The position numbers were made by a program, and so were the translations under genes. Positions 44,541 to 46,815 of a DNA stretch of 64,000 nt are shown one piece after another. The notes beneath the pieces are model-generated. The model was given only the letters and a program-made list of their open reading frames with translations, made no database searches and had not been told where the DNA came from. Origin of the DNA: Thermoanaerobacterales bacterium (GTDB lineage Bacteria > Bacillota > Desulfotomaculia > Desulfotomaculales > JASEER01); contig JASEER010000008.1 in the NCBI GenBank assembly GCA_030019475.1, positions 1 to 64,000 of the forward strand, in the 5' to 3' direction. How positions within the stretch are numbered: the first letter of the stretch is position 1; each line of letters begins with the position of its first letter.

Positions 44541-45245
44541 TCAGCGGACGGGCGAAGGTTCCCCGGCCACCATCTCGGTTGTAAGCTCACGCCAGATACC
44601 CGGCGGGCAGACTTCCCGCAGCAGGATCTCATCGTAGCCTTCACAGCCGGCGAAGGGGGTCGCAGGCCAGTCGGCGGCCCGCACCCGGGGGCTGTAACCC
44701 TCGTGGATCAACGGTTCCCGCCCCGTAGCGCCGGGCTCGCCCAGCCATTGCCGGACCAGCTCATCCTCCCCTTTGTTCACCAACACTTCGCGCAGGCGGT
44801 GGGCGCGCTTGGTCTGCGGGCTGCAGATGAAGGTCTGGCAGACCAGGGGGCGCGCGGTGTAAAGACGGCAGGTCCGCGTCCCACACTCCAGGAAACAGCA
44901 GCGGCCGTCCTCCCGGCGGGCCAGGGTGATGTCCACCGCTCGCCCGTCGACCAGGACGTGGCCGTAAAGCGCCAGGAAGGCGGAAAGCGTCGGCGCCCCC
45001 GTGGCCCGGCGCAGGACCCGGGCATCGACGGCGGTCAGCGGCAGCCGTTCCGCGCAGCAGCGGTCGCACCCCTTGCACTCCCGCCGCCGGGCGCGCCCCC
45101 GGTCCAGGGGCAGCTCCTCGATGGCCCGGTTCAGGGCGGCCAGGTAGTCCCCAACCGTGGCCTCCGGGTCGGCCACAAACAGGTCGTACCCGTTGGCGCC
45201 GTCGATCCGCACCATGTCGACCCTTACCCTGTCCGGCGCGCTCAT
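44541..45245 (-). CDS. YkgJ-family Cys-cluster protein, second copy
   Basis: 234 residues. CKGCDRCCAERLPL is the CxxCxxCC motif and CCFLECGTRTCRLYTARPLVCQTFIC supplies the second Cys group. Like the copy at 2042-2761 it should bind a metal ion. The N-terminal 60 residues are a separate segment (RVDMVRIDGANGYDLFVADPEATVGDYLAAL). It lies 26 nt upstream of the YchF-type gene on the same strand. Confidence 0.8.
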   Translation of the reverse strand: MSAPDRVRVDMVRIDGANGYDLFVADPEATVGDYLAALNRAIEELPLDRGRARRRECKGCDRCCAERLPLTAVDARVLRRATGAPTLSAFLALYGHVLVDGRAVDITLARREDGRCCFLECGTRTCRLYTARPLVCQTFICSPQTKRAHRLREVLVNKGEDELVRQWLGEPGATGREPLIHEGYSPRVRAADWPATPFAGCEGYDEILLREVCPPGIWRELTTEMVAGEPSPVR

Positions 45246-45308: not shown

Positions 45309-45575
45309 TCAGCCAACGAGGATATTATACTTCACCGGACCCGTTTCCCGCAGCAATTCGTCCAGGGTTTGGGGCTCATCCGGGGGGCGCAGGCGGGATA
45401 CCGCAAAAAACGCGTTCCAGAGCCCGGCGTGCACCAGGGGTCCGGTACCCCCGAACATTACTTCCCGCCAGGGAAGCCCGAAATAGCGTTCAAACTCCTC
45501 CACCAGCGTCGCCAGGTCCGCAAGCGTATCCGGCAGGTCGACCCACACCCGTGCCAGGCTGCCGACGGCAACCAC
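45309..45575 (-). CDS. Hypothetical protein, 88 residues
   Basis: GTG 45575 starts 16 nt after the stop of the preceding small gene. The sequence starts VAVGSLARVWVDLPDTLADLATLVEEFERYFGLPWREV and has no membrane segment. No family was recognised. Its position in a tight minus-strand run supports expression. Confidence 0.5.
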   Translation of the reverse strand: MVAVGSLARVWVDLPDTLADLATLVEEFERYFGLPWREVMFGGTGPLVHAGLWNAFFAVSRLRPPDEPQTLDELLRETGPVKYNILVG

Positions 45576-45590: not shown

Positions 45591-45803
45591 TCACCCGGAC
45601 TCGTAAAAGTAAACCGGCACCGCCGAATCACCGGTCCGGCAGCGCTCCTCGTCCAGCCGCCTCAGCGCCGGCTCGTCCAACGTGCCGAAAACAACCAGGG
45701 GCTGTCCCCGGGCCACGCGCAGCGCCTCGCCCGCCAGCCGCCCGCCGATCGCCGCCAGGAGCATTTGGATCAAAGGAAAACCCCCCAGGATGTTTTCCTC
45801 CAT
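45591..45803 (-). CDS. Hypothetical protein, 70 residues
   Basis: ATG 45803, first gene of the minus-strand run down to DUF4363. The N-terminal half is moderately hydrophobic (NILGGFPLIQMLLAAIGGRLAGEAL) and the C-terminal half short strands (PLVVFGTLDEPALRRLDEERCRTGDSAVPVYFYESG). No family recognised. GGAGG-like sequence upstream of the ATG is part of AGAATGGAGG. Confidence 0.45.
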   Translation of the reverse strand: MEENILGGFPLIQMLLAAIGGRLAGEALRVARGQPLVVFGTLDEPALRRLDEERCRTGDSAVPVYFYESG

Positions 45804-45838
45804 TCTAGCACAACCCGGCGTCCGCTTGACCCCCGCGG

Positions 45839-45867
45839 TTGACGGCCGGGATGGCCTCCTCTAAAAT
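45839..45867 (+). promoter_or_regulatory. Sigma-A promoter of the DsbA/FrnE-like gene
   Basis: TTGACG (45839-45844), exactly 17 bp, TAAAAT (45862-45867). The ATG follows 26 nt later behind AGAGGTG. A near-consensus promoter in front of a damaged gene suggests either recent damage or functional recoding. Confidence 0.65.
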
Positions 45868-45892
45868 GTGAAAGCGCAAGAGGTGATAACGA

Positions 45893-46355
45893 ATGATGCA
45901 TAAGGTAACGGTCTTCTCCGACTATGCCTGACCCTTCTGCTACGTCGGCACGGGCATTGTCGAGAGACTGCAAGAGGAATACCCGCTGGAGGTCGAGTGG
46001 GTGGGCTACGAACTGCACCCGGAGACCCCGCCGGAGGGGATCCGGGTAAACCGCCTGAACCCGGGAATCGACCTCACGGAAGCTTACCGGCGCTTGCAGA
46101 GAATGGGGGCGGAATATCGGGAAGGCGGAAGTGGTTGTGGACGTCGCCGCCCGTGTGGGCCTGGACGCCGCTGGACTGCGGGCGGCCCTTGAAAGCCATG
46201 CCTACGCCGGCGCACTGGCGCAAAACGCCGCCCGGGCGCGCGCTCAGGGTGTGGTGGCCCTGCCCACCTTCTTTTTCGAGGACGGCAGCCGGCTCGTCGG
46301 GGCCCGGCCCTACAAAGAGTTCACCCGCCTCCTGGAGACACAGAGGGGGAGGTAA
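45893..46355 (+). pseudogene. DsbA/FrnE-like oxidoreductase with in-frame UGA and internal deletion
   Basis: From ATG 45893 the frame reads KVTVFSDYA-UGA-PFCYVG; family members have SDYxCPFCYxG, so the UGA (45929-45931) stands exactly at the first redox Cys. The frame continues through IVERLQEEYPLEVEWVGYELHPETPPEG and AYRRLQRMGAEY, then shifts near 46118-46122 into another frame encoding AEVVVDVAARVGLDAAGLRAALESHAYAGAL...GVVALPTFFFEDG up to TGA 46355. About 50-60 residues of the helical domain seem missing at the junction. A weak SECIS-like hairpin follows the UGA (stem 45945-45950 with 45958-45963, 7-nt loop). The frameshift argues for a pseudogene; the UGA position argues for a former or true selenoprotein. 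Confidence 0.75.
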
Positions 46356-46440
46356 AAGTTCACAAATCCGTCACATTCCCGTGACAGCCCTGCCACAGTC
46401 GTCCGTTACACTAAGTAAAAAAACCAAAGGAGGGGCGCGC

Positions 46441-46815
46441 ATGAAGAGAAAGCTTGTGGTCTCGCTTCTGCTTCTGGCCTTCACGGGCCTCGTGGCGGTG
46501 CCCGCGTTCGCAGCCACGGATCCGGTGTCGGACGCCAAGGCGTGGTTCGAGCAAAAGTTCAGCGCCAAGAAGGCGTGGGTCGACCAGGCCGTGAAGGACG
46601 GCCGGCTGACTCCCGAGCAGGGCCAGGCCATGAAGGAGCACTTCGACCAGATGTACGAGTTCCACGAGCAGAACGGCTTCGTGTGCCCCAACGGGGGTCC
46701 CGGGATGGGCCGGGGCATGGGTAACGGCATGGGCCGCCACGGCGGCTTCGGCGCCGGCTTCGGCAGGTGGGGCGGCCAGGCTCCGGCGGCACCGAACACA
46801 GCCCCGGGCGCCTAG
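46441..46815 (+). CDS. Secreted DUF2680-like protein
   Basis: 124 residues from ATG 46441 with AAAGGAGG upstream. A Sec signal peptide (KRKLVVSLLLLAFTGLVAVPAFA, cut after AFA) precedes a helical segment (DAKAWFEQKFSAKKAWVDQAVKDGRLTPEQGQAMKEHFDQMYEFHEQNGF) typical of DUF2680/YckD, and a Gly/Met-rich tail (GPGMGRGMGNGMGRHGGFGAGFG). Metal binding by the Met/His tail is possible but not shown. A GTCAC-ATTCCC-GTGAC repeat lies at 46370-46385. A terminator follows at 46825-46857. Confidence 0.7.
   Translation: MKRKLVVSLLLLAFTGLVAVPAFAATDPVSDAKAWFEQKFSAKKAWVDQAVKDGRLTPEQGQAMKEHFDQMYEFHEQNGFVCPNGGPGMGRGMGNGMGRHGGFGAGFGRWGGQAPAAPNTAPGA

Follow-up and report, generated by a model that had tools for sequence, protein, structure and literature searches.

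The locus

The window, a 64,000-nucleotide stretch from a Thermoanaerobacterales bacterium, contains two divergently oriented genes that each carry an in-frame UGA (Table 1). On the plus strand lies a DsbA/FrnE-like gene. A near-consensus promoter and a ribosome site had been proposed upstream of it by an earlier sequence-only reading of this DNA, and both are present: TTGACG-17-TAAAAT matches the consensus at 10 of 12 positions (one such site found, 0.2 expected) and is followed by GAGGTGA. The motif SDYA-TGA-PFCYVG described in the same reading also held when sequence and coordinates were rechecked, with the TGA at 45929-45931. Translated from ATG 45893 with the TGA read as selenocysteine (Sec), the product begins MMHKVTVFSDYAUPFCYVGTGIVERL.... 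The upstream frame is lost past MGAEY at 46117; a downstream frame, two bases on, runs from 46104 as GRNIGKAEVVVDVAARVGLD...ALPTFFFEDGSRLVGARPYKEF to a stop at 46355. Both pieces score above the 25.6-bit cut-off for the PF01323 DSBA domain (32.7 and 42.1 bits, respectively). An Rfam scan of 45700-46500 gave no match, even up to E = 1. Downstream of the dsbA-like gene, 46441-46815 (+) encodes a DUF2680 domain (PF10925).

The second UGA gene occupies the minus strand. The sequence-only reading had covered the gene at 45893-46355 and made no mention of this adjacent one at 45803-45309, which we refer to as the neighbour.

Table 1. Coordinates of the features at the locus within the window
Feature	Position	Strand	Basis or remark
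CxxCxxCC gene (PF03692)	44541..45245	-	63 nt downstream of neighbour, same strand
Neighbour gene, second UGA family, ~150-164 aa	45309..45803	-	start uncertain: ATG 45803, TTG 45773 or ATG 45764
Neighbour SECIS hairpin GGUUGCC-GUC-GGCAGCC	45557..45573	-	covariation
Neighbour in-frame UGA, VYFYESG-U-CPPRKVVAVG	45591..45593	-	homologue alignment
Promoter-like TTGACG-17-TAAAAT	45839..45867	+	5' of dsbA-like gene; consensus match only
RBS-like GAGGTGA	45880..45886	+	from sequence
N-terminal piece, DsbA/FrnE-like selenoprotein	45893..46117	+	model positions 4-76, frame 1; PF01323 E 8.4e-8
In-frame UGA, Sec codon of UPFC redox motif	45929..45931	+	homologue comparison
Bacterial SECIS hairpin UCGGCA-CGGGCAU-UGUCGA	45945..45963	+	loop starts 19 nt past UGA
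Deletion junction	46104..46118	+	GAEY in upstream frame, GRNI in downstream frame; ~140 nt gone
C-terminal piece, cis-Pro loop ALPTFFF	46104..46355	+	model positions 119-197, shifted frame, stop-free inside; PF01323 E 1.1e-10
Second TGA, end of upstream frame past frameshift	46190..46192	+	99-residue product

The UGA of the dsbA-like gene

Searching the order with the N-terminal piece returned matches in 28 of 113 genomes, the window's own included, and every match contained the TGA, with UPFC at the identical place in the same-order translations. A wider set, built by scanning one genome per species and removing near-duplicates, gave 80 non-redundant homologues with 77 TGA, two TGC and one TGT. 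Relatives outside the order come from other Firmicutes, Deltaproteobacteria, Nitrospirae, a Chloroflexi bin and others, and nearly all have TGA; an IMG/VR scan revealed no viral relatives. The sequence-only reading had suggested comparing homologues for UGA or Cys and held that Cys-only homologues would point to an ordinary nonsense mutation; the outcome is the opposite, as nearly all homologues have TGA. Judged from these comparisons, TGA is the ancestral codon of the DsbA-like family at this site, within the order as well as in most relatives from other groups, and the UGA that the window has there, at 45929-45931, is a selenocysteine codon and not a nonsense mutation, with Sec insertion itself predicted.

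The genome is equipped for such decoding. Absence of sel genes had been named as a second sign of a nonsense mutation, and here too the reverse was found, with the whole Sec set in place: selA and selB adjoin each other (L003), a tRNA-Sec with anticodon TCA is present, and there are two selD genes (L041 and L042), each with one in-frame TGA. Because selB occurs in 109 of the 113 genomes of the order, the Sec machinery does not discriminate within it.

A DsbA/FrnE-like selenoprotein with UxxC is an already known kind. COG2761 with UXXC was reported from the Sargasso Sea (PMC1088965), a DsbA-like selenoprotein is listed for Desulfotomaculum reducens (PMC1794560), and it is form 1 in a 2026 inventory (PMC13188914). 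The window gene shares with these proteins (PF01323, COG2761) the domain, a first redox position occupied by Sec and a short SECIS directly downstream, but differs in having lost ~140 nt and the reading frame. Among solved structures, the family profile matches best, over nearly its whole length, FrnE (5cnw/5cp1, E 1.1e-27) and SCO1869 (3gl5, E 3.2e-18). Compared with FrnE, the family here has Sec in place of the first Cys and is shorter, at about 200 residues against 260 in the FrnE chain. The protein does not begin with an evident signal peptide, so we propose a cytoplasmic location; by homology, it is likely to act there as a thiol-disulfide oxidoreductase that attacks through its Sec.

The hairpin downstream of the UGA

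The SECIS-like hairpin that had been noticed after the UGA was recovered at the same coordinates: its stem (45945-45950/45958-45963) has six pairs and closes a 7-nt loop, CGGGCAU, 19 nt from the UGA. In the section of PMC13188914 that sets out the bSECIS model, the loop has 3-9 nt with a G in the first two positions, the stem 4-16 pairs, the UGA-to-loop distance is 16-37 nt, and the minimum free energy is -7.5 kcal/mol or lower. Modelled in this way, as the sequence-only reading had recommended, the window hairpin fits the geometry given there, with its G at the second loop position. The energy is -4.6 kcal/mol for the window hairpin and -7.05 kcal/mol for a 20-relative consensus, to be set beside a published bound of -7.5 kcal/mol for which that section states no span. 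The isolated window strand prefers a different fold (z = 0.19), and the hairpin is not the minimum-energy fold of the 45-mer. Because the window hairpin is weak by itself, the case for it rests on comparison.

That comparison points to strong constraint. Codons +5 to +10 past the UGA read ATC-GGC-AAR-GGN-ATT-GTC across 70 main-clade sequences, and their synonymous sites are frozen: GGC in 69 of 70, ATT in all 62 Ile codons and GTC in all 64 Val codons. Pairs of sequences with the same amino acid differ in codon in only 2.9% (Gly, +6), 0% (Ile/Leu, +9) and 0% (Val, +10) of cases, whereas codon use further down predicts about 64-75%; beyond +12 the differences are mostly as expected. All six pairs of UCGGCA/UGUCGA form in 68 of the 70 sequences, and the window copy keeps every fixed stem base despite its differing amino acids (VGTG for IGKG). 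Because 70 relatives share these frozen bases, the hairpin is more than a chance structure, and as it hardly varies, its covariation is slight. We found no description of near-invariant SECIS codons across phyla in PMC1088965, PMC1794560 or PMC13188914. The frozen synonymous sites make this a very clean natural SECIS for testing. UGA homologues from Anaeromyxobacter (L116, L117 and L118) and Hyalangium (L113) have a differing sequence after the UGA, with a hairpin-like stretch of their own, GCAGCC-UGGUCA-GGCUGC.

These data bear on whether an ordinary Cys codon mutated to TGA in a plain pseudogene. The gene is indeed frameshifted, and Cys versions of the family are known (L072, L073 and L115), one of which (L072, from a related bin) keeps the hairpin pairing while the other two do not. 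With TGA ancestral in the order and in most outside relatives, and a frozen hairpin behind it, such an origin is barely conceivable. The change from TGY to TGA was accordingly rejected as an explanation, on the strength of the ancestral codon, the conserved recoding hairpin and the Sec genes of this genome.

The deletion and frameshift in the assembly

A profile built from intact relatives and run against the genome matched in two pieces in different frames, the first covering positions 4-76 (45899-46117) and the second positions 119-197 (46104-46340); it matched nowhere else, so the genome yielded no intact second copy. Model positions 77-118 are absent. The 42 missing positions times three, plus the 14 nt used twice, amount to 140 nt. 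Motif spacing leads independently to the same 140 nt: between the G of GxxY and that of GxNIG, 54 of 56 homologues have 47 codons where the window gene has 1 nt. This agrees with the ~130-180 nt that had been proposed as deleted near 46118, with a frameshift, and establishes that loss in the assembly. Even with the UGA read through, the window copy has no single open frame to the cis-Pro loop, and in the assembly it is a broken member of the family.

The junction itself is informative. The segment GGGGCGGAATATC can be read as GAEY or, in the second frame, as GRNI. Each of these is family consensus, and such a double reading is the expected remnant of a deletion between two short similar stretches. 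Within the window gene, a direct-repeat search recovered no other copy of the junction stretch, in keeping with a deletion, and in relatives the search for the repeat turned up only runs of 2-6 nt. Because 46104-46118 reads both ways and the relatives have no clear repeat, the ancestral repeat is something we infer rather than see. The downstream frame is free of stops for 83 codons and has a coding-like GC3 of 0.81; the event looks recent, or confined to the assembly.

We therefore consider it probable that a true DsbA/FrnE-like selenoprotein gene lies here and has undergone inactivation. In family members that are intact, SelB and Sec-tRNA would decode the UGA as Sec at the hairpin 13-32 nt downstream; the product, as FrnE homology predicts, would be a thiol-disulfide oxidoreductase of the cytoplasm, its active site being UxxC, that also has a cis-Pro loop. 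A deletion of ~140 nt between two short stretches overlapping at 46104-46118 would then have taken out the greater part of the helical insert and put what follows in another frame, so that a Sec-inserting ribosome would still stop at 46190 and release a 99-residue fragment without the cis-Pro loop. That the deletion is present in the organism, and not merely in the assembly, is what we infer. On that footing, the case documents the loss of a selenoprotein through one deletion in a lineage that keeps its whole Sec machinery.

Of the three explanations that the sequence-only reading had offered, the plain pseudogene falls, and both a decaying selenoprotein and an assembly fault in a functional one still stand. 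The gene could be intact and functional in the organism if an assembly fault or a chimeric read had joined two short similar stretches. The genome is a draft of 87 contigs, outside the break the gene is in good condition and neither piece contains another stop, and the promoter-like site and ribosome-binding site are present. We nonetheless hold such an artefact to be rather unlikely, since the overlap measures merely about 12-14 nt and the words commonly used in assembly are longer than this, and since other genomes of the family also hold broken copies. Identity to other families, moreover, just reaches the lower limit of the range for the N-terminal piece (0.534; range 0.534-0.625) and falls below it for the C-terminal piece (0.361; range 0.394-0.465), and this weakly hints at some relaxation of the window copy.

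Function might also be rescued if programmed frameshifting joined the two pieces or if they acted as separate proteins, and the downstream piece does remain open, with a GTG in frame at 46131. This is highly improbable, as 42 conserved positions are absent in any frame and no relative has an arrangement of the same form.

Several other dsbA-like copies are broken as well, no two of them in the same manner. In BRH_c4b L119, which is identical to G019 L032 over the tested 90 nt, the UGA and hairpin are kept and the frame stops after ~20 more codons. L112 has an in-frame loss of the block before IIND, the frame of L126 changes past FELRPRG, and L120 holds the first ~30 residues only, with an intact copy on contig L075 of the same bin. 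Loss of this selenoprotein gene thus seems, from the genomes compared, to recur, and draft-genome errors may explain some cases.

The neighbour gene and its family

Across the order, a search for the neighbour family gave 47 matches in 46 of the 113 genomes, with TGA inside all but two; 45 of the 47 read through exactly one UGA or, in one genome, two stops including the UGA. When the loci were aligned, the UGA of these 45 fell at one position within VYFYExG-U-xxxRKVVAVGNL. A profile search of the same genomes found strong matches without UGA only at G046:C1:280554 and G064:C21:2977, and both genomes also hold a UGA copy. These paralogues (L162 in G064 and L163 in G046) have Ala and, aligned by eye, Asp at the Sec position, and none of the homologues found in the 46 genomes has Cys there. 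Most selenoproteins are found through their Cys homologues, which is why a selenoprotein family seen with no Cys form is unusual. Among 399 genomes sampled from the phylum, matches were confined to the same order. The main subfamily has the motif YFYExGUxxxR, with no conserved CxxU or UxxC partner; divergent members (L173, L174, L195 and L198) have CTPTU instead, and a differing sequence at the hairpin site.

Downstream of the neighbour UGA lies a hairpin with the consensus GGUUGCC-GUG-GGCAACC, which begins 17 nt past the UGA and places its loop 24 nt past it. Over 33 distinct sequences, 96.5% of cells are paired, and 25 cells have changed on both sides compared with 6.2 after shuffling, a value that none of 500 shuffles reached. 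The covariation score is 0.398 against 0.181, all slid versions scoring far lower, and RNAalifold returned the same seven pairs unprompted. Compensatory pairs are visible in GCAGCC/GGCUGC and CUGGCC/GGCCAG, which take the place of GUUGCC/GGCAAC, and codon +8 is GCC in 40 of 40. With a 7-bp stem and a 3-nt loop that starts with G, 24 nt from the UGA, this element fits the bSECIS geometry given in PMC13188914.

The family matched nothing in NCBIfam, Pfam or PDB, and literature searches on it found nothing. Table 1 of the 2026 inventory, which covers 119 prokaryotic selenoprotein families that mostly carry Pfam- or NCBIfam-type models, has no entry recognisable as this family (PMC13188914). The family is apparently undescribed, in the sense of being absent from the sources searched, which is not proof of novelty. 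AlphaFold, given the single sequence, returned a mean pLDDT of 40.9 and no usable model.

The dsbA-like gene and the neighbour do not adjoin in other genomes where both were located, so the adjacency of the two UGA genes in the window need not mean joint function. Of 45 other loci that were inspected, 13 have a gene for a CxxCxxCC protein adjoining the neighbour in the same orientation (e.g. L167, L177, L186 and L193), which suggests that these two may be functionally linked. We think it quite likely that the neighbour is a founding member of a selenoprotein family that has gone undescribed, with proteins of ~150 residues, confined to the order in our survey and seemingly almost only in Sec form, whose position beside CxxCxxCC (PF03692) in about a third of genomes suggests a shared redox or metal role. 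It is the more novel item of the two and should interest selenoprotein specialists. Wherever the family occurs, it is wrongly annotated as a truncated hypothetical protein.
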